A stretch of 64,000 nt of DNA, taken from assembly GCA_017465565.1 (NCBI GenBank), contig JAFTWA010000059.1, forward strand, positions 26,855 to 90,854. Direction: 5' to 3'. The position numbers were made by a program, and so were the translations under genes. The DNA comes from Tyzzerella sp. (lineage in GTDB: Bacteria; Bacillota; Clostridia; Lachnospirales; Lachnospiraceae). Numbering within the stretch: the stretch's first letter is position 1; every line of letters starts with the position of its first letter. The notes beneath the pieces were generated by a model. That model was given only the letters and a program-made list of their open reading frames with translations. It was not told the DNA's origin and did no database searches. Below are positions 2,952 through 63,597 of the stretch, one piece after another.

Positions 2952-4532
2952 TTAGGATGTGGATGGTGTGTTACCGCCAGTTCCTGAAGGAGTGCTTGGT
3001 TCCGTTGGCGTCGTTGGAGTTGTCGGAGTTGTTGGAGTTGTCGGCGGATTTGTCTCCTCATTACCGCCTTGGTCTCCTTCACCAGTTCCTTCGCCGCCAT
3101 CGCCTTTGTTCACGTCATCTCCGCCACCTTGGCTTGTATCGTTTTCATCACCTTGGTTTGTGTCATCTCCGTCACCTTGGTTTGTATCGTTTTCATCACC
3201 TTGGTTTGTGTCATCTCCGCCACCTTGGTTTGTATCGTTTTCATCACCTTGGTTTTTATCGTCTCCATCACCTTGGTTTGTATCGTTTCCGCCACCTTGG
3301 CTTGTATTGTTTTCATCACCTTGGTTTGTGTCATCTCCGTCACCTTGGTTTGTATCGTCTCCATCACCTTGGTTTGTATCATTTTCAGTTGTTTCGTCTG
3401 TTCCACTGTCGGATGAACTGCTACTCTGTTTCTTAGTTGAAACCAAATAAGCGATTTCATCACTGATTTCAGCCACCTTGGAAGATGTTTGATAATCTAC
3501 TGTACCAAATAAGAATTCATGCAATTCTTGCACATTGCTTTCCAGAGTAACTGGATATACGCAGCTACCTCTTCCCGAGATGGTCGCCGTTTTCTGTTCA
3601 AATGGGAAACCTGAGTTTTCACCGAAAGAGTATTTTGCAAAATCTGCTGCATAAGATACAATTTCAGACATTGTGAAGTTTGTTGAAATCTGAGGCAATA
3701 TCGCATCGATAATCTCATTGATGGTTGCCAAATCAGATTTTAATATCTTTTCAACTACTTTCTGGATAACCAAACGTTGTCTTTCCGTTCTTGCATAGTC
3801 ATCACCTACGCCCTTACGGATACGGGCATAAGTAGTTGCTTGAACGCCGTCCAAAGTTTGGAGACCGCCTCCTGTCAGATGTTTCGCCCTCTGTCCAACT
3901 ACACCTGCAGTTTCATCAATATAATTGTTAACAGCTCTAGCTTCTGCATCTGTGACCTCTACTTCAATGCCACCAACCATGTCTACAATATCAACAACCG
4001 CACTAAAGTTAACCGTTACATATCTCTGAATGTTTAAATCCAGGTTCATATTCAACATGTTAATTGCCTGTTTTGCACCACCGCGCGCATACGCCGAATT
4101 ACATTTCTGGATGCTGCCATTTGTCATATCAAGCAAAGTATCTCTATATACAGAAACCATCTTTACTTCTTTTGTTGCATTGTTCAAACTCACAATAATA
4201 ATGGTATCGGTGTTCAAATCCGCATTTACATTATCCGAACGCGAGTCACTACCAAACAGAACAAAGTTTGTGTATCCCACACCCACTTCTTCCGGGAGTT
4301 CATTAATGATGATTTCTTCTTCTTCAAAATCTTCTTTTTCTATTTTATTAAACTTCGACATTACGAAAATAACAACAGCAATAATTAATACAAGTAAAAT
4401 GATTCCCGCAATCAAAGCTGCTTTTTTCGGTTTACTTAGTCCTTTAAACCAGTTCACCATCTTTTTTCCAATTGCTTTAAAATTAATCCCTTTTCTTGTT
4501 CTCTTCTTTCTTCTCCCTCTTCTATGTTTCAT
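2952..4532 (-). CDS. LytR-CpsA-Psr (LCP) family glycopolymer transferase with repetitive C-terminal tail
   Basis: LCP enzymes move polyprenyl-linked glycopolymers such as wall polysaccharide onto peptidoglycan at the outer face of the membrane. The 526-residue protein has a basic N-terminus, one membrane segment (about residues 38-60), then the LCP domain (about 85-300). Visible LCP motifs are VLFGSDSRSDN, NTDTIIIVSLN, VSVYRDTLLD and DDYARTERQRLVI, with the Asp and Arg residues that bind the lipid pyrophosphate. After a short linker come twelve 8-residue repeats of the type DDTNQGDG/NDTSQGGG, then a Thr/Pro-rich end (TTPTTPTTP). The tail is low-complexity and probably a wall-spanning spacer. 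It may act on the polysaccharide made by the large operon at 18.5-39 kb, but that link is inference. Confidence 0.93.
   Translation of the reverse strand: MKHRRGRRKKRTRKGINFKAIGKKMVNWFKGLSKPKKAALIAGIILLVLIIAVVIFVMSKFNKIEKEDFEEEEIIINELPEEVGVGYTNFVLFGSDSRSDNVNADLNTDTIIIVSLNNATKEVKMVSVYRDTLLDMTNGSIQKCNSAYARGGAKQAINMLNMNLDLNIQRYVTVNFSAVVDIVDMVGGIEVEVTDAEARAVNNYIDETAGVVGQRAKHLTGGGLQTLDGVQATTYARIRKGVGDDYARTERQRLVIQKVVEKILKSDLATINEIIDAILPQISTNFTMSEIVSYAADFAKYSFGENSGFPFEQKTATISGRGSCVYPVTLESNVQELHEFLFGTVDYQTSSKVAEISDEIAYLVSTKKQSSSSSDSGTDETTENDTNQGDGDDTNQGDGDDTNQGDENNTSQGGGNDTNQGDGDDKNQGDENDTNQGGGDDTNQGDENDTNQGDGDDTNQGDENDTSQGGGDDVNKGDGGEGTGEGDQGGNEETNPPTTPTTPTTPTTPTEPSTPSGTGGNTPSTS
3096..3383 (-). repeat. 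Tandem 24-bp coding repeat, 12 units
   Basis: Twelve in-frame 24-bp units encode eight-residue repeats alternating between DDTNQGDG-, NDTNQGDE- and NDTSQGGG-like forms inside the LCP gene. Units are highly similar at DNA level (core ACCTTGGTTTGT on the plus strand), so unit number may vary between strains by slippage or recombination. The unbroken units also create long meaningless open frames on the other strand. Confidence 0.9.
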
Positions 4533-5154: not shown

Positions 5155-8100
5155 CTAGCTTGCTTTATTTTTCCATATCTCGTTCCATTTTCTTGTGAAT
5201 ACCCCTTTATGATAAGGATTTGACTCCCACAATTGTCCATAAACTCTATAATACAAAGTTTTGCTTCCAAGAAGTTCCATGTTCTTCGGTTCACAAATGA
5301 GTTTTTGAAACGCTATGCTATCTTGTTCTGTCGCAAATTTTCCAAATTCATTCAGATATTTTTTCTTTATTTCAATATCTGTTTGTTCTTTAAAAATGTA
5401 TTCAAAAAACCGTTTGTGTTGAGAAACTTTAAAAATCGGAACAACATGCTTCTCAGACAATTTTGATATATCTGCCTCTTGTTGTAACCTTTCTAAAAAC
5501 TCCCAATGATTTGACATGATGTCAAACATTCGGTCGATTCTTATATAAACATAAACGTAGTCAGAAAATGGAATCCTTTTGTCAATTATCATATCTTGTT
5601 TTCTCAAAGAATCTGCAACAATATAATCTTTATAATATTTCCTTTTATGCAACTCTTGACATAAATGTTCGGATAGTCCAATAGTTACATGATATTTATC
5701 TAACCTTGCAAGATAGATATCTGTTAATTCATCTATATCTCTCACAACTTCTGTGTATTTCACACTATCTTCATAATCACTTTTAATTAATTCTTCTACT
5801 TCTGGAATGAAACATCCGATGTGTTTTGTAAGCTGAATTGCTTTTTCTCCATTATTCACTTCGCACTCTTCTTCTATGACAGAATATAGGTGGCTACGCT
5901 GTTCATTTGATAAAATTTTCATGTCCACTCGATTAAATTCAAAATCTTCAACAAATTTTGTTCTTACATCTTCGTCAACAACACATATTTCACGTTCTTT
6001 ATTCAACAAATTGTCAAACACCGTAAGAACATCTTCTGCCGTATTCACTTTACGATAAATTAACGCTAATACTTCCGTGAGATTTTCCGAGGTGATTTTC
6101 AACGGATTAATCAAAACAACCCCTTCTGAAATATCAGAAGACATATCAAACTCTTTTTCCGTAACCAATGGATATTCACCAAAGAACAATTGACGATATT
6201 CTTCTTTTTGCATTTCCAAGGCAAAATAAGTTCGAAATGCAACTAAAATATTCGGGTACCTATCATTTAATTTTTTACAAGCGCCTAAAATTTCTTCAAA
6301 GTTTCCTATATAAGGATTTAACATTTTTAATTTATTATTATTAACCAGATATAAAATAGCGGTATAAAAAAGTTTCTGTTCCAACAATGTCATTACAATT
6401 TCTTCACTGATGTACCTTTCGAATCCCATATTATCAATAGCCTTCATATAATCCTTTGAAAAATCCGTAGGTTTAAATAAATTTAAATAATCTGCTATTC
6501 TATCTTGAGAAACTTCTGATTCACCTACCACTTCAAAGAACCCATCGTTACAAATCATGTTATTCTGCATAAAACATAATATTTCTTCACCAATATCAAC
6601 TGGTTCTATATTTTCTGCAAAAAACTGCATGATTTTCCAGCATATATTTTCTACCTGCGTAAAATCTGTTGGAGATATAGCATTTACTACTTTACACAAA
6701 TACTGTGCTTGCGATTCCTCCAGTTTTTTCAGATTTACAAGTTTTATCGCAGTAAGGGGACTTCGAATTTCTTCGATTTCTTCTTCCGAAATCTGCGGGG
6801 CGCCATCATTAACAAAAACATCTGTAAATTCAAGCAGATCAAACTTTACTCCTTTAATAATATTGATACGCTCTTGAATAATGTTTTCTTCAGTTTCAGA
6901 TAAAGAGATTATTCTTGTGATACATTTATTTATAAATTCCGTTCTTTTTTCTTTTAAAGTATTTATTCTGTCCCATATGCAAACCGCCTCTCCTAAGCCT
7001 TTTTCTATTCCAATCATCTTTTTTAGAAAGGCTTCAAACAGCTTATCCATCGAAACAACTGCTGCCTCTACAAATAAAATGTCATTCATCAAAACAACTG
7101 GCGGAAAGGTCTCTAGAGTTCCTAGTGTCTGCTTAATCGTTCTATTTTCGCCGTCATAGTATGCTCTTTCAACATTATAATCTAATTTTTCATAGCTCAT
7201 ATTTTGATTTGGAAACAGTAACCAGTCGCAGAGCGCTCTTTCTTCTGTCGTTTTTATATGGCTTCCTTTTGGATATGTATAGAAATACATTCTAAAATCA
7301 TCATTAAATATGCCATTAAAAACCATGTCACACAGATCCAACACAAACTTCTCTGAATAATTACCTTTACCCAAACATTCATTAAATGCCTGTATCAATT
7401 CATCTATATCTTCTTGTTGGTTTGCCTCATTGACAATCTTATAGCTTCTTTGCATAAACTCTGCAAATGCCTTTTCATCTTTAATCAACGCATAGTAATC
7501 TTTTGAAAATTGATTCTCCAAGTAAGATATTGCCGTACACGCCTCAAAATTAACAGCTGTATTTACTTTATATTCTTGATTCTTCAACGATACCATTATA
7601 GCAATGGCTTTATTTAACCGTTCCTTCAAATCACGCAGTGTTAGATTTGTCCCCTTTTTTATCCATTTAAACGATTCTGGCAACACATCTTCCACTTTTA
7701 TACCAATCAAATTTTGCAATGCAATTTTACTTGATGCATCACTTTTTATCAAACGTAACAAAATAGAATCATAATCATCAAAATGTATTGGCTTTAATGA
7801 GACAATAATATCAAATACTTTCGTATATACATAATCCACTTCCTTGTCATCCTCTAATTGCTTTAGTTCAGATTCTGGCTTAATGGAAATAACAAAGACA
7901 AATTTAGAACAATCTTCTACCAGTGAATCTTGAAACCGATAAATTTCTTTTAAAAATTCAATCATTACCTCTTTTTCATTAATACGATCCAAATCATCAA
8001 TAAAAACTAACTGTTTACCCTTTTTAGGTTTTATTTTCTCAATTATCATACTGTATGTATCAAATACATCGCTAATCTGTATTTCACTTTTGCCCAACAT

Positions 8101-8718
8101 TTTCCAATGAGAGAATGCAATACAAACATCCTTTACGCCCAAAAAGACAGCTATTCCCGCAATCAATACAAAAACAGGAGAGATCGCTTTGAAAAAAGCT
8201 ACTGCTATATCACACCATTTCGGCAAAAATTGCATGACTCCTGTACCTGAAACATTCGCCACTTTATAAAGCGTATATGACACACCAGCTATTATAAACC
8301 AGACAACAAACCATACTAAATTATTAACCGAAAATGATATATTGCCATAGTTTTTGCTTAAAATTTTATTTATATAACGTCCAAATTTTGATGCATGACC
8401 ATTTGCCAATTGATACAAAAAAGATTTTGTCAGATTAGAAACATTTTCATTTAACTCTTTTCCTGTTTGCGAACTTAAGCAATCCCACATATTTACTTTT
8501 ATAGGCTTCGGATTTTTATCATTTTGTATTTCATTACAAAGCAGATTCGTCATGCTTGTTTTTCCCGTACCATAATCAGCAATTACCCCTATCATATTAG
8601 CCCCTTTGTTTATTGCTGAGCGTATAATATCAACTTGTGATTGAAATCCTATTACATCTTCACCGCTATCAGATATTGGATTGTTCACAAAAACTATAGG
8701 TTTGTATTTATTATTCAA
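5155..8718 (-). CDS. Large KAP-type P-loop NTPase with two membrane segments
   Basis: KAP NTPases are STAND-like ATPases with membrane helices inserted in the P-loop domain; several are implicated in phage defence or membrane-linked signalling. With the TTG start at 8718 the protein has about 1,187 residues. Walker A is ADYGTGKTSM (about 47-56), two hydrophobic segments follow (about 134-153 and 174-197), and Walker B is LVFIDDLDRIN (about 237-247). The remaining 900 residues are helical, mostly without recognisable domains. The TTG is chosen because GGAGAGGAG sits 8 bases before it, while the upstream ATG at 8775 lies inside the leader hairpin. It is the only gene behind leader A (8762-8857). 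A defence role is inferred from family and context. Confidence 0.85.
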   Translation of the reverse strand: MNNKYKPIVFVNNPISDSGEDVIGFQSQVDIIRSAINKGANMIGVIADYGTGKTSMTNLLCNEIQNDKNPKPIKVNMWDCLSSQTGKELNENVSNLTKSFLYQLANGHASKFGRYINKILSKNYGNISFSVNNLVWFVVWFIIAGVSYTLYKVANVSGTGVMQFLPKWCDIAVAFFKAISPVFVLIAGIAVFLGVKDVCIAFSHWKMLGKSEIQISDVFDTYSMIIEKIKPKKGKQLVFIDDLDRINEKEVMIEFLKEIYRFQDSLVEDCSKFVFVISIKPESELKQLEDDKEVDYVYTKVFDIIVSLKPIHFDDYDSILLRLIKSDASSKIALQNLIGIKVEDVLPESFKWIKKGTNLTLRDLKERLNKAIAIMVSLKNQEYKVNTAVNFEACTAISYLENQFSKDYYALIKDEKAFAEFMQRSYKIVNEANQQEDIDELIQAFNECLGKGNYSEKFVLDLCDMVFNGIFNDDFRMYFYTYPKGSHIKTTEERALCDWLLFPNQNMSYEKLDYNVERAYYDGENRTIKQTLGTLETFPPVVLMNDILFVEAAVVSMDKLFEAFLKKMIGIEKGLGEAVCIWDRINTLKEKRTEFINKCITRIISLSETEENIIQERINIIKGVKFDLLEFTDVFVNDGAPQISEEEIEEIRSPLTAIKLVNLKKLEESQAQYLCKVVNAISPTDFTQVENICWKIMQFFAENIEPVDIGEEILCFMQNNMICNDGFFEVVGESEVSQDRIADYLNLFKPTDFSKDYMKAIDNMGFERYISEEIVMTLLEQKLFYTAILYLVNNNKLKMLNPYIGNFEEILGACKKLNDRYPNILVAFRTYFALEMQKEEYRQLFFGEYPLVTEKEFDMSSDISEGVVLINPLKITSENLTEVLALIYRKVNTAEDVLTVFDNLLNKEREICVVDEDVRTKFVEDFEFNRVDMKILSNEQRSHLYSVIEEECEVNNGEKAIQLTKHIGCFIPEVEELIKSDYEDSVKYTEVVRDIDELTDIYLARLDKYHVTIGLSEHLCQELHKRKYYKDYIVADSLRKQDMIIDKRIPFSDYVYVYIRIDRMFDIMSNHWEFLERLQQEADISKLSEKHVVPIFKVSQHKRFFEYIFKEQTDIEIKKKYLNEFGKFATEQDSIAFQKLICEPKNMELLGSKTLYYRVYGQLWESNPYHKGVFTRKWNEIWKNKAS

Positions 8719-8761
8719 TGCTATATCTCCTCTCCATTCTTTCAGATAATTTATCCCAAAC

Positions 8762-8857
8762 AAAAAGGCAGGCAAACAAAGGGCTTCCGCCCTTTGTTAC
8801 CTACCTATCGACCCATGTCTATTCTAACATATTATTACATTTTACGACAACCATTTC
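8762..8857 (-). promoter_or_regulatory. Leader A: promoter plus conserved hairpin/T-run upstream of the KAP gene
   Basis: Minus-strand promoter with -35 TTGTCG (8845-8850), an 18-nt spacer and -10 TAGAAT (8821-8826). Fifteen bases further, a hairpin (8767-8805) forms 17 pairs with one bulged T, around a GGAA loop, and is followed at once by five T residues (8762-8766). The start codon is about 43 bases beyond. Promoter, spacing and hairpin are shared with leaders B and C. A stem followed by Ts inside a 5' leader is the form of an intrinsic terminator, so attenuation is the simplest reading. Confidence 0.8.
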
Positions 8858-8881
8858 TATTTTTATTTTCTGTTCGATATT

Positions 8882-9973
8882 TTACTCAAACGTTGCCTTA
8901 TTCTTGTAGTTAATCGCAATATAACTCTTGCCTCGATTAATCACCAATTCCTGTCCATTCTCATCATAAAACTTCAAATACGATGCTTCATCCGCCTTTG
9001 ACCAGTGAATCTTTTGCACCGCTCCATTAGAAATGTAATATCCAACAGCACTTGATGAACCCTCCCAGTCTACACTCTTATGACCAACCTCATCTCTTGT
9101 ACTGATGCTGGTCTCTAATACGAACACATTGGTAAACGCAAGCTGTGTCCCAGTCACACCATCCATATGAGCACTTCCATTTATCTGTTTCAGATATGTG
9201 TCAGTCGCTGCGTCATAAGTCAAAGTTGCAGTAGCTGCACCAAAATTTATATGTACCTTACTACATTCGTCACCTTGCGGTTTCACTATTTCACCAACTT
9301 CATGGAAATCAAACGCCGTCCCCTGCTTCGATTCCAGTAAATCTGTTCGCATTCCATTTTTGCTTACTGCGTTTACGAAACTCGTTCCGTCAAAATAACC
9401 AGTATGCTCTAATGAATATCCCGCACTTCTTCTAGCAGAATCACGACCAAACAATCCACCCGTATTCACTAAACCATCGAAACGGTCCATCTTCAAGGAA
9501 TTCAAATAACTCGTTATAGTCTGGTCTTGTCCCCAGTGCACATAATATGCATCGAATCCTTTTGCGATTGCCGGATAATAATAACGACAGCTTCGTATTG
9601 CACAAATCTTCGGAATCTGTGTATAGTCTGCATACAAGGCCATTAATCGTGTTAAATTCCCCTCTACTGGAATCTCAAAAATTACATCTGCCTGTGCCAC
9701 ACCGTATTGCGGAAGTGCCTCTTCCACGTTATTAACCATTACCGCAACTGGACGCTTTCCAATGGCTTCTTTCGTCAAATCGTTTAAACCGGTTAGTAAG
9801 TTCTGTCTTGCCGTAAGGTCTTCCTCTGTTACTTGTGGTATACCAATGTCGAGCGAGGTATCCAGGTCCGTTGAGCCATTGGCGGAAGCACCTTTGTCTC
9901 CACAGCCAGCCAATAAACTCATTGTGATAAAAATCCCAAGTAAACAGCCTATCTTGCGCATTCTTTTGTACAT
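8882..9973 (-). CDS. DUF3048 (YerB-like) lipoprotein
   Basis: A 363-residue lipoprotein. The N-terminus has a lipobox (SLLAGCGDKG) with the Cys as expected lipid site. The body matches DUF3048: RPVAVMVNNVEEALPQYG, ADVIFEIPVEGNLTRLMALY and CAIRSCRYYYPAIAKGFDAY in the N-terminal part, then a C-terminal half ending in a basic, Asn-rich stretch. The ATG at 9973 is chosen because GAGGGGATTT lies just before it; the ATG at 9988 has no good site. It is exported and anchored to the outer leaflet. The biochemical role of the family is not known to me. It lies between two accessory units but lacks their leader, so it looks like a resident gene. Confidence 0.88.
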   Translation of the reverse strand: MYKRMRKIGCLLGIFITMSLLAGCGDKGASANGSTDLDTSLDIGIPQVTEEDLTARQNLLTGLNDLTKEAIGKRPVAVMVNNVEEALPQYGVAQADVIFEIPVEGNLTRLMALYADYTQIPKICAIRSCRYYYPAIAKGFDAYYVHWGQDQTITSYLNSLKMDRFDGLVNTGGLFGRDSARRSAGYSLEHTGYFDGTSFVNAVSKNGMRTDLLESKQGTAFDFHEVGEIVKPQGDECSKVHINFGAATATLTYDAATDTYLKQINGSAHMDGVTGTQLAFTNVFVLETSISTRDEVGHKSVDWEGSSSAVGYYISNGAVQKIHWSKADEASYLKFYDENGQELVINRGKSYIAINYKNKATFE

Positions 9974-10054
9974 TATAAATCCCCTCATTCCTTTATTTGG
10001 ATTACTTTAATTTATTGTACCACAAAACTTACATATAGTAGAATAGTTTTTACT

Positions 10055-11749
10055 CTACAATTCGTATATTTTTTTCAGACCCTCTCTACATATCATACAC
10101 TCGTCTTTATCGAGTTTGCATACTGGAACATCAATTTCAGCCAATGCAAATCGCTTAATACTAATTGGAAATTCTGCCCCATTTTGTTCATCACCATCTA
10201 AGAGATTCTTATTATAAAACAAAGCGAGAACAAAAAACTCCGAACATTTTTGCAAAGCTTTATCAGATGCTATTATTTCTTTTAAATATGTTGTAGTTGG
10301 CATTATATCGCATATCAATAAAATTTTTTCAAACTCATTAAATTCGTTCCACAATGACTTTTCTCTATTAATATGTTCATCTTTTTTATGAACAGATGGA
10401 TATAAATGATAACTCACTTTGTTTTCTATCCAGTAATCCAACAAACTACTTCCGATTATATTCCCTTCCATTCCATAACCTATTGCCACTTGAATATTAG
10501 GGAAATTCATTTTATGCATTCCCATTATGCATTCTTTAATTCTATTTAAAATGTCTATGTTTCCGAGAAAAGCCGGTATATTTATCCATCCTAAAGTTTT
10601 TCTACCGTCTTTCCAGTGGAAATGACCATCTTTATAATTATTATCTTTTTTCAAATGTTCAATTAAAAACCTATTATTTTCATTCACAACAATTTCCTTA
10701 GAGTATTTCGCAATAACTTTTTGTTCATTATCATCATCTACCTTAGGTAATTCCTCCACTTGTGACACAGGTTCCGTTTTTTGTTTTGTCTGTCTTACTT
10801 GCAATTTATGTAAATATTTTCTATCATTTACTTCGAGCCAATCTCCCGCTGTATATGCATAGTCATGCAAGTCCAACTCATTATCTTTGCATATTGCCAC
10901 CGAAAATCTATTTGTAAAAGCATCGCCGTTTTCATTTGTTAAAATCTTACCCAAACTACCAATTTCAATATATCTATATAATTCTCCACCATCACCCACT
11001 ATATCCAAATGACTTTCTGACGTATGATGATGTCCATAAATAAAGGTATTTATTTCTTTTAATCCCAAATTCTTTTTAACTACATCCGCATTTTTTAGTG
11101 TAGCCAATTCTCTGTTTCCGGTAACCGCAAAACTATGGTGAGTCGCTACAAATACAGATGCCTTCTTTCCTACCATAAACTTGTCTAACTCTCCATTTAA
11201 TTTTTTAATATCAATATATCCCACATGATGTTCATCCAAATGTCCTTCTTTTGCTAACGAATTCAATCCGACAATATATGTGTCAATTTCATCAATATAT
11301 ATATAATCGAGAAGTGCGTTACTTACCTCTAAATTTTTGTTATCTAAAATTTTTTTATAAAACTCCTTAAAGTTTCCCAATTTTATATCATACAAATTAG
11401 GGGCATCGTTTCCGGATATTCTATTATCATCGCAATAAGTTGTTAACTTCGCTCTATCTATATCATGATTCCCAGGAACTAATAAAATATTTTCTATTCC
11501 TATTTCTAATCTATTGCATAATCCCTTTAAAATCTCTTCAAAATCTTCATATTCCATCTTTCGAGCAGTATCGGCAATATCCCCTGTAACTACCAAATAT
11601 TTGAATTTTATTTTTTGATTCTTTTGTAATTCCAACAAAAAATTTTCCCACTTCTGATAATAATCATTTTCATCTCCTTTCCAAAATTGTGATTTTGTCT
11701 TATTATCAGTATAATGAATGTCTGAAACTAACAAAATTGCACTATTCAT
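10055..11749 (-). CDS. Calcineurin-like metallophosphoesterase fused to a PRTase-like domain
   Basis: Third gene of the module behind leader B, 564 residues. The N-terminal domain (1-270) has the full metallophosphoesterase set: DIHYTDN (10-16), GDIAD (56-60), GNHDID (93-98), ATHHSF (202-207) and GHHHTSE (239-245). These bind two metal ions, so a phosphoesterase or nuclease activity is expected. After a polar linker, residues about 380-545 look like a degenerate phosphoribosyltransferase fold (VAIGYGMEGNIIGSSL, then ILLICDIMPTTTYLKEI in place of the PRPP loop). The C-terminus carries Cys544, Cys551 and Cys554. The ATG at 11749 is preferred over 11779 because GGAGGGG lies 7 bases before it; it overlaps the upstream stop by 8 bases, implying coupled translation. 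The substrate is unknown. Confidence 0.82.
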   Translation of the reverse strand: MNSAILLVSDIHYTDNKTKSQFWKGDENDYYQKWENFLLELQKNQKIKFKYLVVTGDIADTARKMEYEDFEEILKGLCNRLEIGIENILLVPGNHDIDRAKLTTYCDDNRISGNDAPNLYDIKLGNFKEFYKKILDNKNLEVSNALLDYIYIDEIDTYIVGLNSLAKEGHLDEHHVGYIDIKKLNGELDKFMVGKKASVFVATHHSFAVTGNRELATLKNADVVKKNLGLKEINTFIYGHHHTSESHLDIVGDGGELYRYIEIGSLGKILTNENGDAFTNRFSVAICKDNELDLHDYAYTAGDWLEVNDRKYLHKLQVRQTKQKTEPVSQVEELPKVDDDNEQKVIAKYSKEIVVNENNRFLIEHLKKDNNYKDGHFHWKDGRKTLGWINIPAFLGNIDILNRIKECIMGMHKMNFPNIQVAIGYGMEGNIIGSSLLDYWIENKVSYHLYPSVHKKDEHINREKSLWNEFNEFEKILLICDIMPTTTYLKEIIASDKALQKCSEFFVLALFYNKNLLDGDEQNGAEFPISIKRFALAEIDVPVCKLDKDECMICREGLKKIYEL

Positions 11750-12818
11750 TACATTTCCCCTCCATTTCACATCCAGCACACAAATCCGTCTTAATTTTAT
11801 AATCTATTTTATTATTTGTTTTTGAAACAGTATATAATGAAGCCCTATTGTCAACTTCTCTATTTTGAACTGTTTTTATATCGACAACACAAGTTTCACC
11901 GCCAACTCTTCCACCACAATATTCTATTATTGTTCTAGCTCGTCCCACTTCTCCTCCCAAACATATTACATCTGATACAATAATATAATTCTTATCATCC
12001 GCTATGCTCTTTTCGAAATGTTTTCTGTGTACACTTCCTAAAGGTCCCAAATGATCGAGATAGACCATATCAACATTAAATAATTGCGCCAGTTGTGCAG
12101 CTATATAGCCACCATTCATAGTATGAAAAAACAAACTGATATCCTTATTTTGATTGCATTCCTGCTTAATAATATTTTTATCCATCATCTGCAAAGCCAA
12201 ATAATAAATACATAATCTAAAAAAACCTGCATTACTTTCTGCCATTTTCTTTATGTCTATATATTTAGACAAATATACCGGAACAGAGGTATGTTGCTCA
12301 TTTGTGTTATTCAATTCATCTGTACACTCTGATACTACTCTTCCAAATTCTTCTCGAAAAGCTTCTTCTGCCTCACAAATCAATTGATCGTACTGTGGAG
12401 TAGCTTTCCCTCTACCAATTCTGCCCGAAACTATACAATCAGTTTCTTCTAAAATCTGGAATTTATCTCCCCAATTCATTTTCTCCAAAATATTTTTTTG
12501 CACGTTCAATAAATAGACATTCTTTCCTTTTGCACAAAATTGTTTCTTTATAAAAGTAACAAATGCTACTAAATTATTTTCTGTTATTTCTTCAATCTTT
12601 TTAAAATCAATACATATACTTTTGTTTTCATAAGGATAACTGTATATGTGTTCAAAGATATCTGCATTAATTTTTCTGCAGTATATCCCCTGCTTTTGAC
12701 GTGATGTATTTTTTATGCGCTCATCTTCTATAAAGCCGTTTAAATATGTATGTAATGCACATTCAGCATGCATATTTAAATAATATCTATTTTCATCTTT
12801 CAGTATCGAATAGAGCAT
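11742..12818 (-). CDS. STAS-like / phosphoribosyltransferase-domain protein
   Basis: Middle gene of the three-gene module, 358 residues. Residues about 60-115 have a STAS-like pattern (ICIDFKKIEEITENN, KKQFCAKGKNVYLLNVQ). Residues about 190-325 form a type I phosphoribosyltransferase domain: SLFFHTMNGGYIAAQLA and the PRPP-loop-like YIIVSDVICLGGEVGRA (278-293). The end has Cys347, Cys350 and Cys356, a possible metal site. The ATG at 12818 follows AGGAGGAGG and starts one base after the stop of the upstream gene. PRTase folds in comparable contexts may make or sense a nucleotide; which one cannot be told. I do not recognise a named system with this set. Confidence 0.78.
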   Translation of the reverse strand: MLYSILKDENRYYLNMHAECALHTYLNGFIEDERIKNTSRQKQGIYCRKINADIFEHIYSYPYENKSICIDFKKIEEITENNLVAFVTFIKKQFCAKGKNVYLLNVQKNILEKMNWGDKFQILEETDCIVSGRIGRGKATPQYDQLICEAEEAFREEFGRVVSECTDELNNTNEQHTSVPVYLSKYIDIKKMAESNAGFFRLCIYYLALQMMDKNIIKQECNQNKDISLFFHTMNGGYIAAQLAQLFNVDMVYLDHLGPLGSVHRKHFEKSIADDKNYIIVSDVICLGGEVGRARTIIEYCGGRVGGETCVVDIKTVQNREVDNRASLYTVSKTNNKIDYKIKTDLCAGCEMEGKCNE

Positions 12819-12819
12819 T

Positions 12820-13854
12820 TTAATCCTCCTCCTTGTCCACTGCAATTTCAATTCTTACTCCCTGAAATCCTACACCAAATAACTTAATCGGAGAATATGA
12901 ATCTTCACTCTGCCGTTCTAATAGACAGCTTACACATGAAGAAATATCCTTTTTACCCTCATTTCTTTTACAATTCTTACAACTATTTTGAGAAAAAATC
13001 ACTTGAGTATTTCCATATTGAATTTTAAAAATCCCATTACATTTCACTACATTGGTCATCAACGTCCATAAATCTGCTCTTTTATCTTTCAAGTGCTTCT
13101 CATATGAATAATTCAACACGCTCATTATGACTAAATAATTATGAAATTTAGGCCCTAATTTTTGATATTTTTCTACCATATTTAACTTGCGTTTTTCTTT
13201 TATAAATGACCGTTCAAATCCCACACCCGAGTCTGCAATACTGATGTTTGTTCCATATTTGTCTGACGCAACATATGTAAAAGAATAAGAATTACTGTAT
13301 ATTATTGAATTTGTTTCAATCTCAGCTATTGAACTAATTGTTGCATCTATGATGTTAATCGGTAATTGATGCGTATCTTGCAATATTTTGCCATAGACCG
13401 CTTTACTTTTATCCACCAAGCAATCATAAATATAATCCCTTTTTTTCACAGGATTTTTAATTCTATCTACATCAGTATAATGTATGTTCGTATATGAAAT
13501 CTTGTGCAAATCCCGCAATTCTTTATAATTCCAACTTTCAATTATCTCTTTATCAATTTTGAAAATTTGCAATTTTTCTGATATGCTTTTAAATTGACTA
13601 CATATAATAAAATTCAACAAACTCGATTCAGAACCAATCAACAATTCTATTGGTTGTTTATACAACTTTCTAAGATAATCTCCAAAAGACAATATAACAG
13701 GTACCGCTGATGGTGTTATATATTGTGTTTTTCTCATATCTAGTATAGGAGGCGTCTCTCTATCCAAAGAATATATTTCAAAAGATTTCCTTAATATATT
13801 GTTATAGAAATAATATGTCGATATCTTCTCATCAAATATTATTATATTATCCAT
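12820..13854 (-). CDS. STAS-like / GHKL ATPase-domain protein with CxxC pairs
   Basis: First gene of the module behind leader B, 344 residues. The N-terminal 100 residues look STAS-like (TPPILDMRKTQYITPSAV, then YKQPIELLIGSES). Residues about 165-280 carry a histidine-kinase-type ATPase fold: an N-box-like SSIAEIETNSIIYS (174-187) and a G1 box IADSGVGFERS (206-216). No phosphoacceptor domain or membrane span is visible, so it is more like an anti-sigma/HATPase switch than a sensor kinase. CKNC (292-295) and CVSC (307-310) probably bind zinc. STAS with GHKL ATPase recalls the SpoIIAA/SpoIIAB partner switch, here in one chain. A sensing role for the module is inference. Confidence 0.75.
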   Translation of the reverse strand: MDNIIIFDEKISTYYFYNNILRKSFEIYSLDRETPPILDMRKTQYITPSAVPVILSFGDYLRKLYKQPIELLIGSESSLLNFIICSQFKSISEKLQIFKIDKEIIESWNYKELRDLHKISYTNIHYTDVDRIKNPVKKRDYIYDCLVDKSKAVYGKILQDTHQLPINIIDATISSIAEIETNSIIYSNSYSFTYVASDKYGTNISIADSGVGFERSFIKEKRKLNMVEKYQKLGPKFHNYLVIMSVLNYSYEKHLKDKRADLWTLMTNVVKCNGIFKIQYGNTQVIFSQNSCKNCKRNEGKKDISSCVSCLLERQSEDSYSPIKLFGVGFQGVRIEIAVDKEED

Positions 13855-13902
13855 ACCTATTTTATCCTTTCATCTTCAAAATTTCTTATTTTCTATTTAC
13901 GC

Positions 13903-13999
13903 AAAAAAGGCAAGCAAATAAAGGGCATACGCCCTCTACTCACCTACCTTTTGACCCAATAATATTCTATCATATTTCTACATTTTTCGACAACTATTT
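13903..13999 (-). promoter_or_regulatory. Leader B: promoter plus conserved hairpin/T-run upstream of the three-gene module
   Basis: Minus-strand -35 TTGTCG (13988-13993), 18-nt spacer, -10 TAGAAT (13964-13969). Fifteen bases later a hairpin (13909-13948) forms 18 consecutive pairs, counting G-T, with a four-base loop, and six Ts follow (13903-13908). The start codon at 13854 is about 48 bases beyond. Compared with leader A many stem positions differ but stay paired. Confidence 0.8.
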
Positions 14000-14017
14000 C
14001 TGTCACTTATTTTGATT

Positions 14018-14206
14018 TTACTTTCCAAATACCATCTGAAGATTTAACCAAACTTCAATACTTATCCCTAACATTATTGACAATTTTTGTTCCAGATCAT
14101 TAGATAAATTTGCCTGACCATTTACTAATTTACTTACTGTTTTAGGTGTTGTACCAAGTCTAATTTTCGGTAATATAATTTCATCGTATATTATAATTAA
14201 AGTCAT
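14018..14206 (-). pseudogene. Truncated HigA-like antitoxin remnant
   Basis: A 62-residue open frame whose last 45 residues resemble the C-terminal half of HigA/VapI-type XRE antitoxins (TTPKTVSKLVNGQANLS, LSIMLGISIEVWLNLQ). Helices 1 and 2 of the HTH are missing and the first residues do not resemble the family, so it is probably the end of a broken gene. It begins 3 bases after the stop of the 842-residue gene with only a weak AGG upstream. No HigB-like toxin is next to it. A short but functional regulator is the alternative. Confidence 0.55.
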
Positions 14207-14209
14207 TTA

Positions 14210-16738
14210 CTAACCTGTTATTATTGTACCTGCTGGACTTTCTTTAACATTAACAGATATTTTAGCGGTAACGCTAATTATTTTCCTTTTGTTGTAAAGG
14301 AATTCCTCTAACTCGTTTTCTGTAAACTCTATAGGCACTCCATTGATAATCGGATAATAGTAGGCATCTAACTCGTTATCATATTCCACTTTTTCCTCTG
14401 ATATGCTCGAAGAATTTACGGAAACATTTACATCAATTAAACTAACTTGAATAGCATTTTCTTTCAACAAAATCCCTTCTCTCACTGCATCAGTAAATAC
14501 CGTCTCACATTCTTCTTTAAACCTTTTAAATTCAGCTGCCAACTCATAATCTCTATTCGCTACTGCATACTGAGACCCCAATAATATTTTCAAACTGTTT
14601 GCATTCAAATAATTTATGAAATCTTTGTCGTCGATAAAGTCCCTAGTTCTGTTTTTCAATTCCACATCGTTACTTTTATACAAATAATTTGCAATACCTA
14701 CCAATAAACGTCCTACTATATATGAATAATAACCGCTTATACCTTCCTCTACGACTGTATTTGTATATACATTCAAATGTAGCAACGGGACATTTATAAT
14801 TTCATTTTTAGAATCATCGTCCGTTAAAATAACTGCGCACTCTTCTTTAATTAACTCAAAAACATTTTCTTCAATTTTTCTACATAACTCCCTTTCATTT
14901 ACTTTTTCTTCGTACTCGTGTTGTTCTTCTCTAGCAGTTTTAACATGTTTCTCTTTTATATTCTGCTTTATCGTTTTTTCTAGCCTTTCATACAACAAAC
15001 CTACTTCTGTATTAATCTTATTTTCATTTGCATCAGAAGCACAAATTAATCTGTATAGAGTTGTAAACGTCTCCTTTACTTTTCGTTCATTCTCTATTTG
15101 AACATATCTATATACATTTATATCATCAATATTGTTTTTTAATAATTGTGGCTTATAATATTTCTGGGATATGTATAGAACAGTAAATATATAGAAATCG
15201 TCTATTACATAATCAATAATAGCTTCTTTCACAACAAATTCTTCTGAAAAATATTCGTATTTATCTAACACTTCATGCATTCTCTGCAGCATTGTCAAAT
15301 CCAGCCACTCTGCATTCATTGATAATAATCTCAAAAAATGATCGTATGCAGCTTTCACTTTATGATCTAACATAATATCTTGGGCATTTTGTTTAATTTT
15401 CTCTGAAACATATTTTTCACTTTCTCTTTCAGCCAAGTAATAAGTATAGCAATGGAACATTAAATATAATAATGCATGATACCTGTTTTTCAATCTATAT
15501 GTATTTTTAATCCCTTGCAGGTAAAGTCCCTTTTTAAGTATATCTCCCATTCCATTTACCAATAAGCTATAACAGTAGACAAAATATATCTTACTCTTGT
15601 CCCACAAAAATTTCTCACATTTATCGCTTGGAATGTTATATTCAGAGAAAATAGCCCATGTACTAAGAGGTTGTTCCCATTGTCTCTGACTCAAAACATG
15701 ATTTCTATTCTTTTGCTCCGCTAAATAATATCCCATTCTTCCTGCAAACCGGCAAAGTTCTCCCACATCACTTTCTTTAGTTCCCAACCAAATTTCAATT
15801 CTTTGAACCATATCTATGAAATGCTCAAATCTAAATACCCTTTCCACTCTTTCTATACTTTGTTCGTAAATTGCTTCTAATATCTCGCTTGAAATATCAT
15901 TAAACAACCAAAATCCTTCTTTATACTGTTCTTCTGACGGTTGCTCGTTTAATATCATACTCCACAACAGGTTATATACTTCTTGTGTAAACTCAACACC
16001 TCGTACTTTCATAAGGTTTTTTTCAGAACCTAATAAACAATATGAAACCTTGTAGCATTGTTGTTGAATACACCCTAACCCACCATCTGTCTTGTGCATC
16101 CATAATTTATGCATACACTTTTTGAACACCTCAAGATATTTTTTATAAGTTGCTTTATCCTGTTCATTTATTTCCTTTAGCCAGTCAAGCACAAAATTCT
16201 GAAATATACTATTCTTGGTTTTACAATCGAAAGCACTCTCTAGTACATAATCTATATATGCCTCTATTTCATCATTCGCAATATTTTTCCCCTTAAAAAC
16301 CGAATAAATTTCTATGATAGAAATTGCAATTGTAATCAGAGTTGCAATAAACAAAAAAAATACTGTATTATATATCTCTAACACATGAAATAGCACACTT
16401 ATCACAGTTAAACCTAATGCCATCAAAATAATTACCTTTTGTTTCAATTTCCATGGTCTTATGTTTAAATAGTAATCACTTATCGATACACCCATATAAG
16501 AATCCGAAATATTTCCTGTAATCAGCGCAATAATCGACATCACTAATGTTCCTATAGTAGATTGCACTTGTAATAGAGTTAATGAAAAATCATTTATATC
16601 TTGAATTTCAATCTTGGCTTTGAAATTTATTACATACCAATCACAAAAAAGTCCCACTACCAAACACAATATAATACTTATAATCCCTATTAGTTCTGTG
16701 CGAACATATTTTTTTCGTATTTTATTCCATTTATCCAT
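14210..16738 (-). CDS. Large four-TM protein of unknown function, candidate defence effector
   Basis: An 842-residue protein with four hydrophobic segments near the N-terminus (about 16-37, 57-76, 101-120 and 124-147) and a long, mostly helical cytoplasmic part rich in Glu, Lys, Tyr and Leu. I see no Walker, nuclease, protease or NADase motif. The last 60 residues (from about VSLIDVNVSVNSS) look beta-rich. It is the first gene behind leader C and is followed by the HigA-like fragment. Membrane-anchored proteins with a large soluble part are common effectors in abortive defence, and its leader ties it to the other two accessory units, but the function is unknown. The ATG at 16738 follows TTGGAGAATTGAACG. 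Confidence 0.7.
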   Translation of the reverse strand: MDKWNKIRKKYVRTELIGIISIILCLVVGLFCDWYVINFKAKIEIQDINDFSLTLLQVQSTIGTLVMSIIALITGNISDSYMGVSISDYYLNIRPWKLKQKVIILMALGLTVISVLFHVLEIYNTVFFLFIATLITIAISIIEIYSVFKGKNIANDEIEAYIDYVLESAFDCKTKNSIFQNFVLDWLKEINEQDKATYKKYLEVFKKCMHKLWMHKTDGGLGCIQQQCYKVSYCLLGSEKNLMKVRGVEFTQEVYNLLWSMILNEQPSEEQYKEGFWLFNDISSEILEAIYEQSIERVERVFRFEHFIDMVQRIEIWLGTKESDVGELCRFAGRMGYYLAEQKNRNHVLSQRQWEQPLSTWAIFSEYNIPSDKCEKFLWDKSKIYFVYCYSLLVNGMGDILKKGLYLQGIKNTYRLKNRYHALLYLMFHCYTYYLAERESEKYVSEKIKQNAQDIMLDHKVKAAYDHFLRLLSMNAEWLDLTMLQRMHEVLDKYEYFSEEFVVKEAIIDYVIDDFYIFTVLYISQKYYKPQLLKNNIDDINVYRYVQIENERKVKETFTTLYRLICASDANENKINTEVGLLYERLEKTIKQNIKEKHVKTAREEQHEYEEKVNERELCRKIEENVFELIKEECAVILTDDDSKNEIINVPLLHLNVYTNTVVEEGISGYYSYIVGRLLVGIANYLYKSNDVELKNRTRDFIDDKDFINYLNANSLKILLGSQYAVANRDYELAAEFKRFKEECETVFTDAVREGILLKENAIQVSLIDVNVSVNSSSISEEKVEYDNELDAYYYPIINGVPIEFTENELEEFLYNKRKIISVTAKISVNVKESPAGTIITG

Positions 16739-16778
16739 CGTTCAATTCTCCAATATAAAAAGTAAAGGTAACAAATAC

Positions 16779-16874
16779 AAAAGGCAAGCAAATCAAGAAC
16801 ATCTGCCCTTTATTCGCCTACCTTTTTGCCCCATCTCTATTCTAACACACTTTTACCTTTTTCGACAGTAATTT
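16779..16874 (-). promoter_or_regulatory. Leader C: promoter plus conserved hairpin/T-run upstream of the 842-residue gene
   Basis: Minus-strand -35 CTGTCG (16863-16868), 18-nt spacer, -10 TAGAAT (16839-16844). Sixteen bases later a hairpin (16783-16822) forms 17 pairs and one A-G mismatch around a four-base loop, followed by four Ts (16779-16782). The start codon at 16738 is 40 bases beyond. It is the most diverged of the three copies, yet the fold and spacing hold. Confidence 0.78.
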
Positions 16875-16923
16875 CTAATATTCACTCCCCAAACTTTGCC
16901 CTAAAAAGAGAAATAAACAAAAT

Positions 16924-16962
16924 AATGCTCTCATTTTGATAGTCTACCAAAATGAGAGCATT
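16924..16962 (-). terminator. Intrinsic terminator after nagB
   Basis: Perfect 15-bp stem AATGCTCTCATTTTG / CAAAATGAGAGCATT with a 9-base loop, directly past the nagB stop; ATTTTGTTT follows on the minus strand. It insulates nagB from leader C. Confidence 0.85.
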
Positions 16963-16966
16963 CATA

Positions 16967-17698
16967 TTATTCTTCAATTTTTGAATATGCTTCTGCATCA
17001 CAGATAACTGTTACATCTGGATGGAACTGTAAAATTGAGCCTGGTACTTGTGGTGTTACAGGGCCTGTGAAAGCTTTCTTCACTGCATCTGCTTTATCAG
17101 CACCACTTGCAACTACAACAATCTTCTTAGCACTCATGATTGTTCCAATACCCATTGAGAAAGCCTGGCGTGGAACATCATCGATAGATGCGAAGAAACG
17201 TTTATTTGCTTCAATTGTACTTTCTTCTAAGTCTGAAAGATGTGTTGCCTTATCAAATGAATCTGAAGGTTCATTGAATCCAATGTGTCCATTGCGTCCA
17301 ATACCTAATAATTGTAAATCAACTCCGCCCAATTCTTTGATTAATGATTCATAGCGTACACATTCTGCTTCTGGGTCTTCTGCCATACCGTTTGGTACGT
17401 TAGTTCTTGCTTTATCAATATTAACATGGTCGAAAAGATTGTCATTCATGAAATAGTAATAGCTTTGGTCATTGTCTCTTGTAAGACCTTTGTATTCATC
17501 TAAGTTTACAGTTGAAATGTCAGAGAAATCGATATCTCCCGCTTCATATTTTTTAATTAATTCTTTGTACATACCAACTGGCGATGAACCTGTTGCCAAA
17601 CCTAACACGCTGTTTGGTTTTAATGTGATTTGTGCTGCAAGAATGTTTGCAGCTACTCTGCTCATTTCTTCATAAGATTCTGTTCTAATAAGTTTCAT
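16967..17698 (-). CDS. nagB: Glucosamine-6-phosphate deaminase
   Basis: Converts glucosamine-6-phosphate to fructose-6-phosphate and ammonia in the cytoplasm, in amino-sugar catabolism. The 243 residues match the family length and carry its motifs: LGLATGSSPVGMYKE, TVNLDEYKGL, the catalytic region LGIGRNGHIGFNEPSD (with the active-site His) and FASIDDVPRQAFSMGIGTI. The gene has its own terminator and a strong site upstream (AAAGGAGACAAAAGAA). The sequence just upstream holds the remains of glmM, a gene of the opposing amino-sugar pathway. Confidence 0.96.
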   Translation of the reverse strand: MKLIRTESYEEMSRVAANILAAQITLKPNSVLGLATGSSPVGMYKELIKKYEAGDIDFSDISTVNLDEYKGLTRDNDQSYYYFMNDNLFDHVNIDKARTNVPNGMAEDPEAECVRYESLIKELGGVDLQLLGIGRNGHIGFNEPSDSFDKATHLSDLEESTIEANKRFFASIDDVPRQAFSMGIGTIMSAKKIVVVASGADKADAVKKAFTGPVTPQVPGSILQFHPDVTVICDAEAYSKIEE

Positions 17699-39331: not shown

Positions 39332-39368
39332 AAAATAGTCAGTCGCTATTAACGACTGACTACTATTT
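39332..39368 (-). terminator. Intrinsic terminator after the first nucleotidyltransferase gene
   Basis: Stem AGTCAGTCG / CGACTGACT with a 7-base loop, flanked by AAAATAGT/ACTATTTT, immediately after the stop at 39369. A related hairpin follows the second nucleotidyltransferase copy (42687-42718), so it was duplicated with the gene. Confidence 0.8.
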
Positions 39369-40289
39369 TTACCCATATAACTTTTCTGGATATTCTCCCG
39401 CAACCACTAAGGCTTTCACAGATTCTACGACAAACTCTTTATCTTCCTTGTAAGTCACACCAAACCATTGGTCATGTGACTTAAGAACTCTTACATCTGC
39501 CTTTCCTCCATGAAGAAGGTTCCCCACAATCGTCGGAAGCAAATACTCTGCCTTTTCATAATTTCCAGTACTCTCTTCTAAAAATTCTACAAATCCTGTT
39601 TCCAGAATTTCAAAGAACTCTGGTTGTAATCCCCACATATTCATAGATACAAGAGAATTCACATCGACTGGTACTTCTCCCTCTTCTATTTGAATTGCAG
39701 CTCCAGATTCTGTCTTCACAATATTCTTAGTCTCCACAATATCTGTCAGCATATGATTTTCATCTGCCTTGCAGATTCCTCTTGTTACACTTCCGTTATC
39801 ACTCAGTGTATTTCCGAGAACAAAGCCCACCATACAAATTTGTGTCTTATCACTTTCTTTTGCTTCTTGCATTAGATGTTCATAAGCCACTTTGTAAGCT
39901 TCTTTTCCATAGTAGTCATCTGCGTTGATAACTAAAAATGGCTCATTTACTACATCCTTGCAGCAAAGAATCGCCTGCCCTGTTCCCCATGGTTTCTTTC
40001 TGTCTGCATACTTTTCTTGGAACTTTTTTGGAATATCTGAAATCTCCTGATATGCGTACGCCACTTCTACCACTTTTTCAATGCGGTTTCCGATAACCTC
40101 TTTGAAGTCCTTCTCAAGGTCTTTTCGAATAACGAATACCACCTTGTCAAACCCTGCTTCCATCGCATCATAGATAGAATAATCCATGATAATCTCACCA
40201 TTTGGTCCTACTGGTTCCAATTGTTTGATTCCACCGCCGAAACGACTTCCAATTCCAGCTGCCATGACTACTAATGTTGCTTTTGCCAT
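39369..40289 (-). CDS. Sugar-phosphate nucleotidyltransferase, copy 1
   Basis: A 306-residue nucleotidyltransferase fold enzyme: LVVMAAGIGSRFGGGIKQLE is the NTP-binding start and FLVINADDYYGKEAY the metal-binding DD. It differs from pyrophosphorylases such as RfbA or GalU in sequence after residue 100, so the sugar is unknown. Copy 2 at 42731 differs at only 18 of 306 residues, 14 of them in the last 115 residues. It has AAGGAGAAG upstream and its own terminator. Confidence 0.88.
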   Translation of the reverse strand: MAKATLVVMAAGIGSRFGGGIKQLEPVGPNGEIIMDYSIYDAMEAGFDKVVFVIRKDLEKDFKEVIGNRIEKVVEVAYAYQEISDIPKKFQEKYADRKKPWGTGQAILCCKDVVNEPFLVINADDYYGKEAYKVAYEHLMQEAKESDKTQICMVGFVLGNTLSDNGSVTRGICKADENHMLTDIVETKNIVKTESGAAIQIEEGEVPVDVNSLVSMNMWGLQPEFFEILETGFVEFLEESTGNYEKAEYLLPTIVGNLLHGGKADVRVLKSHDQWFGVTYKEDKEFVVESVKALVVAGEYPEKLYG

Positions 40290-42718: not shown

Positions 42719-42730
42719 AAAACACTTTTA

Positions 42731-63252: not shown

Positions 63253-63597
63253 TTATACTTCTATACTAATTCTTAACGCCTCATCGACCTTCTGCATCTG
63301 CCGGTGGTTTACTCTCCCTATGTAATCCCCCAGGCGTTTCTTATCTATGGTCCGAATCTGCTCCAATAGCACCATCGAACTCTTATCCAATCTTCGTATT
63401 CCTCGAATTCGCACATGTGTCGGTAGCTTCGATTTCCTTCTGCTTGTAATCGCTGCAACAATAACGGTTGGGCTATGATAATTCCCTTTATTATTCTGAA
63501 TCACAAGCACTGGACGACAACCGCCCTGCTCACTCCCAAAGACCGGATTGAGATTGGCGTGATAGATGTCACCACGCCTCACATCTTTTTTCTCCAT
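63253..63597 (-). CDS. MazF/PemK-family toxin, no visible antitoxin
   Basis: Ribosome-independent mRNA interferase fold. The 114 residues show VRRGDIYHANLNPVFGSEQG, GCRPVLVIQNNKGN, TVIVAAITSRRKSKLPTHV and SMVLLEQIRTIDKKRLGDYI, which include the Arg and Thr/Ser residues of the MazF active site. No MazE/AbrB-type antitoxin lies in the 400 bp upstream or before the excisionase gene. MazF-like genes next to element integrases are common; here it may have another partner or a control role in the element. AGGAGGGG lies 10 bases before the ATG. Confidence 0.9.
   Translation of the reverse strand: MEKKDVRRGDIYHANLNPVFGSEQGGCRPVLVIQNNKGNYHSPTVIVAAITSRRKSKLPTHVRIRGIRRLDKSSMVLLEQIRTIDKKRLGDYIGRVNHRQMQKVDEALRISIEV

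Follow-up and report, generated by a model that had tools for sequence, protein, structure and literature searches.

A promoter-hairpin element with putative Spo0A boxes precedes many defence operons in some Lachnospiraceae

The timing of expression of many bacterial defence systems is poorly understood, and the regulators met in the accessible parts of the literature sit with or near the defence operons. In the available portions of the respective reports, CapK/CapS, BrxR (WYL) and RptR are protein regulators encoded upstream of or beside such operons, and one type of control serves diverse immune operons. The element described here shares the latter property, yet it is a cis sequence, with copies spread over the chromosomes of certain gut bacteria. 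It was found in a 64,000-nucleotide (nt) stretch of DNA from Tyzzerella sp. (GenBank assembly GCA_017465565.1, contig JAFTWA010000059.1, positions 26,855 to 90,854), hereafter called the window, where three copies, designated E1, E2 and E3, precede a KAP-family NTPase gene, a module of three open reading frames (ORFs) and a gene for an 842-amino-acid (aa) protein, respectively. We consider it probable, at roughly 0.6, that scattered chromosomal anti-phage defence operons have in this element a common, compact promoter-attenuator cassette, with initiation predicted to be gated by Spo0A and downstream expression by read-through of a predicted leader terminator.

Several described systems resemble the element in part. 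As in the Spo0A regulon of Bacillus and Clostridioides, the TGTCGAA core is present, within one mismatch, in the majority of elements (26 of 42) and the same box occurs at most spo0A and spoIIGA genes of these genomes, whereas the genes behind the element are mostly defence operons with a terminator-like leader. The targets of AlpA and lambda Q (alpB and the late promoters) have, as far as the accessible text of the sources describes them, site-like repeats between the -35 and -10, an intrinsic terminator before the first gene and more than one target operon; unlike these, the element has a very short leader, belongs to another phylum and has no identified antiterminator, the comparison being one of cis architecture. 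The LoaP leaders (dfn, mln), as portrayed in the consulted portion of their description, are structured Gram-positive 5' leaders with an intrinsic terminator before operons, while the element is without an UNCG hairpin, forms one long hairpin and has other targets. EGeRS1 and EGeRS2 of pLS20-family plasmids are, according to the part of the source available, repeated upstream regulatory sequences with predicted secondary structure which define a set of operons, but EGeRS1 measures 420-750 bp, the genes concerned serve plasmid establishment, and no constitutive sigma-A promoter was found in EGeRS1-B. Neither the element nor Spo0A control of defence systems was reported in the titles and abstract openings of the open-access literature, a body of text that leaves subscription papers and preprints largely outside.

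All three window copies are about 100 nt long, lie on the minus strand and have the same layout, in which a long hairpin with its U-run begins no more than ~15 nt past an extended -10 promoter and the gene comes next. AGAAAT, TTGTCG (E1, E2) or CTGTCG (E3), 18 nt and TAGAAT succeed one another in each copy. An earlier reading, made from the window sequence by itself (hereafter the sequence-only reading), had listed these motifs together with the hairpin and T-run; all were seen in each copy, at positions agreeing to within 1-3 bases. Covariance models were subsequently built from the three window copies (R1), from six copies (R2) and from 20 copies (R3). The copies and their parts, with the evidence for each, are as follows.

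8760..8859, minus strand: E1 (promoter, leader hairpin and U-run), before the KAP NTPase gene; repeat families, alignment, R1-R3 matches, Smith-Waterman-type test
8821..8850, minus strand: E1 promoter, TTGTCG-18 nt-TAGAAT, with TG preceding the -10
8766..8806, minus strand: E1 leader hairpin, which folds like a terminator, and the U-run behind it
13901..14001, minus strand: E2, before the three-ORF module; repeat families, alignment, R3, shuffle test
13964..13993, minus strand: E2 promoter, TTGTCG-18-TAGAAT
13907..13950, minus strand: E2 leader hairpin (20 pairs, terminator scan) and U-run
16776..16876, minus strand: E3, before the gene of the 842-aa protein; CTGTCG-18-TAGAAT, TGTCGAA box, hairpin and U-run

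Pairwise local alignment of E1, E2 and E3 gave scores of 58.5, 49.0 and 52.5, as against a mean of 9.4 and a maximum of 23 among 6000 scores from dinucleotide-shuffled pairs. A copy lies upstream of just three of the 46 window ORFs of at least 150 aa, the other 43 being without one; the next-best upstream score in the window was 15, for DUF3048, and nagB was outside the best eight, so that these two interspersed genes indeed lack the element, as had been noted before. The hairpins of E1, E2 and E3 have minimum free energies of -31.6, -31.1 and -25.3 kcal/mol (z scores of -5.9, -6.2 and -5.3), and in no case were any of 200 shuffled sequences as stable. The coding regions behind the copies are unrelated by Pfam, in agreement with the sequence-only reading, and the element has a covarying structure of its own; an ordinary repeat or a gene duplication was therefore rejected.

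Among 20 copies, in an alignment fitted to the model, a 22-pair helix is 89% paired and 18 of the 22 pairs change on both sides, a value matched by none of 500 shuffles, while versions slid along the alignment gave 8-10 such pairs. The lower stem is largely kept in sequence (GGTAAGG/CTTGCC), and the upper stem varies freely with covariation. The consensus of 41 rows reads TRTGnTAnAATA, a short gap, and GG(T)TnATCAAnGGTAAGG; it leaves out six of 47 alignment rows, namely two duplicate L076 rows, L127, L131, L062 and one L126 row. At the point where, from spacing, the transcript is predicted to begin, the copies share a conserved GG(T)TnATCAA. A stable hairpin directly followed by a U-run thus stands between promoter and gene, as in intrinsic terminators, and since the promoter's own transcript would meet the terminator-like hairpin within ~55 nt, with a collinear gene behind it, the element is most simply read as an attenuator at which transcription is predicted to terminate.

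R1 matched further copies in the window genome and in one other genus. R3 was applied to 20 genomes picked because they were known or suspected to carry the element or were closely related to such genomes. Up to 150 candidates were scored in each, which yielded 45 matches at E<=0.05; 34 of these reached E<=1e-3 and came from 11 of the 20 genomes. Of the 34 copies, 20 are the training copies and 14 were held out. The window genome has nine copies on six contigs, and the record of Sporofaciens musculi strain WCA-9-b2 has seven at E<=0.05, six of them at E<=1e-3. A DNA pattern that covers the -10 and the start of the hairpin and leaves out the -35 region had 11 matching loci in a collection of genomes from 84,980 species, ten of them in records titled Clostridia, Lachnospiraceae, Dorea or Sporofaciens. 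The hairpin is present in seven of the 11, two of which are on contigs already in the set (G270:C63, G239:C43); the remaining four (L080, L081, L085 and L086) were rejected as false matches, three of them being in Clostridia or Lachnospiraceae records. Scans of 299-397 genomes scored the best 10-13 candidates per genome, and one of them missed a BREX-associated copy (R2, E 7e-4) that another search recovered, so these wide scans say little on how widespread the element is. R1 and R2 matches above ~1e-3 were, judged by eye, mostly unrelated terminators before ordinary genes, while some weak matches (e.g., L033, L056 and L058) proved to be real copies under R3. DNA searches of the phage and plasmid collections returned only chance-like matches of 26-27 nt, exact patterns in IMG/VR gave 0, 3 and 0 matches, the three being the same in-gene match, and Rfam gave no match at gathering scores over the window elements or at ten other element loci, its weak e-value matches over 8400-17200 not overlapping the elements. 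At two loci (L088 and L084; G270:C63 and G724:C72), near-identical weaker copies with a good hairpin and a poor -10 recur every ~1.2-1.35 kb; this cluster lies immediately ahead of the KAP-gene copy, and the one gene tested within it (L064, 340 aa) matches the PDDEXK_2 family of transposase-type nucleases.

The element is oriented towards genes. Behind 31 of the 34 copies, an ORF on the same strand, at least 55 aa long and with a loose ribosome-binding site (RBS), starts within 420 nt, at distances of 13-283 nt. Reading outward on the opposite strand gave such an ORF for 7 of 34, and random points in these loci gave one in 294 of 680 cases. Further copies in the window genome lead a NACHT-pentapeptide protein with a PtuA-like ATPase (PtuA, 1e-35) and a Schlafen-type helicase behind it; a 788-aa protein followed by BrxP (4e-238) and BrxC (1e-207); a cas operon with Cas6, Cas_CXXC_CXXC, a Cas7-type protein (DevR/Cas7) and Cas3, which we take to be of type I-B; a 1484-aa Cap4-nuclease/AAA protein; a 145-aa ORF, largely of YTGPGGG repeats, that begins at +13 from the element end (G000:C30) and has a 146-aa ORF and a Ser/Thr kinase gene behind it; and, at a contig end, a short ORF that matches sigma-70 region 2 below the threshold. 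In other genomes, copies lead KwaA (2e-17) and KwaB (4e-13) of the Kiwa system, a 930-aa VWA protein, a DUF4062-TPR protein, a KAP protein, an ATPase with RdrB (4e-33) behind it (RADAR), a dCTP deaminase (1e-106), a DEAD helicase (C3a193 helicase, 7e-97), an operon with PDC-M49A (1e-34) as its third ORF, and an RTas1808-SLATT-HD-CE unit (RTas1808, 2e-59). Matches to AbiO and Nhi (3e-12 and 4e-13) are also found among the element-led proteins, and the PDB matches of one element-led 60-aa ORF are solely to mCpol chains (Panoptes OptS), weakly so (E 0.19 and 0.22).

By our reading, 12 of the 34 copies lead recognised defence units, two of these being KAP NTPases, which we take to be defence-associated. 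Among the 14 held-out copies, four lead firm defence genes (RADAR, dCTP deaminase, helicase and PDC-M49A) and one a weak candidate (mCpol). Many copies lead proteins of no known function: element-led proteins of 1544, 1227, 919 and 2112 aa had no match over the curated cut-offs, the 1343-aa part of a 1997-aa ORF that was scanned had none in Pfam, and neither the RADAR-side ATPase nor the 1544-aa protein had an informative PDB match. Two weaker R3 matches outside the 34 (L126 in G002:C14 and L128 in G004:C7; E ~0.005) lie before large ORFs followed, by eye, by FRG-, OLD-ATPase- or DUF262-like proteins, and may mark further defence operons.

The TGTCGAA repeats that overlap the -35 were missed by the sequence-only reading and are new relative to it. 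TGTCGAA is the core of the Spo0A box (0A box), in which G2, C4 and G5 are contacted, and is documented in B. subtilis and C. difficile in the accessible portion of the source (PMC3485338). With at most one mismatch, it is found no more than 75 nt ahead of the -10 in the 26 of 42 elements given above, a partly selected count for which 200 shuffles gave a mean of 6.1 and a maximum of 12, and which leaves out five of the 47 rows (the L126 row dropped from the consensus is kept here). The boxes are mostly 13/15, 23/25 or 35 nt upstream of the -10, overlapping the -35, and several copies have two or three of them one helical turn apart. Spo0A commonly binds boxes 10 bp apart. The E2 promoter has TGTCGAA and TGTAGAA at that distance, which a tandem-box pattern also recovered, and E1 has TGTCGTA, a 0A box with one mismatch. 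Furthermore, of the strict element -10 sites, 10 of 19 have TGTCG ahead of them, as against none of the 27 extended -10 sites that these loci hold besides (p 2e-5).

The same boxes mark Spo0A-related genes in these genomes. Perfect boxes lie within 300 nt upstream of four of six spo0A and all four spoIIGA ORFs examined, where ~2% would be expected for each (300/4^7); box distances are approximate for three of the spo0A ORFs (L134, L136 and L137), which an alternative TTG start extends upstream. All ten have a box within one mismatch, as by chance alone would ~1/3 of such stretches, and the spoIIGA gene of the window genome is preceded by a 10-bp tandem. The Spo0A_C domain (PF08769) was found in all nine element genomes tested. 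In two genomes (L148 in G726 and L152 in G725), tandem TGTCGAA-like boxes also lie ahead of an ORF that by eye is ComM-like, hinting that competence genes may share the regulator.

Under the proposed mechanism, sigma-A RNA polymerase would bind the extended -10 (TRTGnTAnAAT) together with a TTGTCG-like -35, and phosphorylated Spo0A, or another Spo0A_C regulator, would occupy the TGTCGAA boxes over the -35 and spacer, allowing growth phase or stress to gate initiation. Because the boxes overlap the -35, initiation would be Spo0A-responsive in either direction, and because they reach into the core promoter, repression or a silent, poised state is slightly favoured. The transcript would start near GG(T)TnATCAA, and a hairpin of ~20 bp with its U-run, placed by spacing ~45-55 nt from that start, would end most transcription before the gene. 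A second event, presumably read-through brought about by infection or by a specific factor, would then permit expression of the operon, the leading ideas being infection-linked antitermination and a promoter-loaded factor resembling Q or AlpA.

A number of observations weigh against this proposal. In a consensus scan of 8600-17100, 45 promoter-like sites were found versus 46 in shuffles, i.e., no excess; it lists the promoters of E1 and E2 and not that of E3, and as terminator-like only the hairpin of E2, so the evidence lies in repetition, folding and conservation rather than in consensus matches. The alignment behind the covariation counts, being fitted to the model, leans towards it. One of the 34 copies (G355) lacks the leader motif and looks false, two others (L117 and L118) have no gene directly behind them, and some precede non-defence genes, namely a secreted protein (G006) and an ORF resembling an extracytoplasmic-function (ECF) sigma factor (C44, with the weak relatives L129 and L130); the YTGPGGG-repeat ORF with its kinase gene beyond is likewise not evidently a defence unit. 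No box within one mismatch is present in 16 of the 42 elements, and as the models were trained with the box region, box counts in model-found copies are partly selected; only the box-blind pattern, in which four of the seven hairpin-bearing copies have a box, is free of such selection. Genome-wide, the tandem pattern shows no enrichment, its reversed control matching more often in all three genomes at up to two mismatches, and Spo0A_C was also found in four of seven other genomes, four of those seven having been scanned for elements at low sensitivity.

The formal enrichment for defence genes likewise counts against a strong statement. At E<1e-30, PADLOC models, scored singly, which is noisy and cross-matches ordinary ATPases, matched 8 of 33 element-led proteins (the cas, Cap4, kinase and sigma-like units lying outside the scored set), compared with 3-7 of 61 proteins at loci with weak generic matches (p 0.008 to 0.095) and 4-6 of 58 neighbour genes outside element-led runs (p 0.02 to 0.07), both ranges stemming from controls counted per family. 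The 58 neighbours were drawn from 71 proteins, 13 that are or may be element-led having been left out, and the element neighbourhoods are themselves rich in defence-model matches. Enrichment over control genes is suggestive, not decisive. A better argument is that recognisable multi-gene systems, i.e., BrxP with BrxC, KwaA with KwaB, RdrB with its ATPase and the cas operon, begin behind the element, although no system-level null was computed. The sequence-only reading had held that one cassette serves a regulon of defence-like genes. Its observation is confirmed and larger than could be seen from the window, and its inference is mostly right: strong matches, in the window genome and in others, are found far more often before established or plausible defence operons than before metabolic genes, which agrees in outline with the covariance-model check it had suggested. 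The inference is nevertheless supported in part, given the non-defence and unassigned genes behind some copies and an enrichment that is suggestive, a regulon in the strict sense being a prediction from sequence.

Other explanations of the same architecture were considered. A dedicated factor of the Q or AlpA kind might bind repeats between the -35 and -10 and ride the polymerase through the leader terminator, TGTCGAA then being its loading site and not a Spo0A site. The alpB promoter, in the accessible text of its description, indeed has the same architecture, with a site between the -35 and -10 and an intrinsic terminator before the first gene (PMC7969949), and the conserved initial transcribed GG(T)TnATCAA could hold a pause. 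We nonetheless regard this as unlikely, TGTCGAA being a documented Spo0A box that also occurs upstream of most examined spo0A genes and of all four examined spoIIGA genes; no candidate for such a factor was identified, though no search for AlpA homologues was made, and AlpA itself is from Pseudomonas. The element might also be a generic promoter and terminator carried with horizontally acquired islands, with no dedicated regulation and a defence bias that merely reflects island content, and it is true that neighbour genes match defence models, that enrichment over them is modest, and that copies from different genomes resemble each other (mean identity 0.49) about as much as those from one genome do (0.55). 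However, a promoter gains no insulation from a terminator that it reads into itself, the copies of the window genome are spread over six contigs, and the covariation of the hairpin and the position-specific boxes imply selection, which makes this account decidedly improbable.

Two further possibilities concern the leader itself. A promoter running directly into a terminator is the layout of a small RNA gene, and each element could encode an RNA of ~55 nt acting in trans, its position before defence genes being incidental; in its favour, the upper stem differs among copies and the lower stem GGTAAGG/CTTGCC is mostly preserved. Since 31 of 34 copies point at a downstream gene and 7 of 34 have one when read outward on the opposite strand, and since the free covariation of the upper stem keeps no common target sequence there, this idea has very little weight. 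Antitermination by LoaP, a NusG paralogue, through a leader RNA hairpin has a precedent in a Gram-positive system with a leader hairpin and a NusA-dependent terminator, yet LoaP targets, as described in the available part of the same source, carry a separate small UNCG-tetraloop hairpin before the terminator (PMC12691694). Each window element folds into a single long hairpin; the loops are GGAA, GUAU and AGAU, and E1 has an additional 3-bp helix. No UNCG-tetraloop hairpin was found in the three, and membership among LoaP target leaders was accordingly rejected, so we give this mechanism scarcely any credence.

Returning to the promoter-attenuator cassette, its widest implication is put forward tentatively, at odds somewhat below even: some Lachnospiraceae may possess a chromosome-wide immune regulon, comprising BREX, CRISPR-Cas, RADAR, Kiwa, a Panoptes-like unit, STAND/NACHT and KAP proteins and many uncharacterised genes behind one cassette, which Spo0A state and leader read-through would switch together, and genes captured behind copies would then be predictable as defence genes. 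If so, an immune arsenal would be under coordinated control by one cis cassette tied to the Spo0A developmental switch, and the element would provide a sequence tag for new defence systems, several copies leading large proteins without an informative family match.

The genes led by the window copies, together with a separate terminator-like hairpin nearby, are listed below.

5155..8718, minus strand: KAP-family P-loop NTPase, led by E1, 1187 aa from an RBS-supported TTG (Pfam KAP_NTPase 5e-10; PADLOC PifA 3e-7)
10055..13854, minus strand: three overlapping ORFs led by E2
12820-13854, minus strand: ORF of the E2 module, 344 aa
11742-12851, minus strand: ORF of the E2 module, 369 aa
10055-11779, minus strand: calcineurin-like phosphoesterase of the E2 module, 574 aa (Pfam Metallophos 2e-10; PADLOC 'Effector' 5.6e-10)
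14210..16738, minus strand: 842-aa protein, family unassigned, led by E3
16924..16962, minus strand: terminator-like hairpin of nagB, separate from the element, between nagB and E3 (terminator scan)

The KAP gene had been listed as a 1206-aa ORF starting at a TTG inside the hairpin, and the RBS-supported TTG is 41 nt past the element. No Pfam or PADLOC family matched the 344-aa and 369-aa proteins, and the 842-aa protein had no Pfam family up to 0.1, only Csm2 at 0.08 in PADLOC and no PDB relative up to E 1; the E2 proteins had no informative PDB match, and the plasmid collection held no homologues of the E3 protein or of two of the three E2 proteins.

At L129 and L130, both in the genus of the window, and at L033, weaker copies form a sub-class lying before ORFs that by eye are ECF-sigma-like or secreted-protein genes rather than defence genes. 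Elsewhere in the window, an Rfam pemK RNA (RF02913, 55 bits), which differs in sequence from the element, lies at 63715-63788 on the minus strand, upstream of a 114-aa ORF (63253-63597). A 24-nt repeat in eleven overlapping registers (3050-3433) is located inside a 526-aa LytR-CpsA-Psr gene (2952-4532), and a 300-nt direct repeat (39362-39661 and 42724-43023), 87% identical and 3.4 kb apart, was found in a long minus-strand gene cluster.

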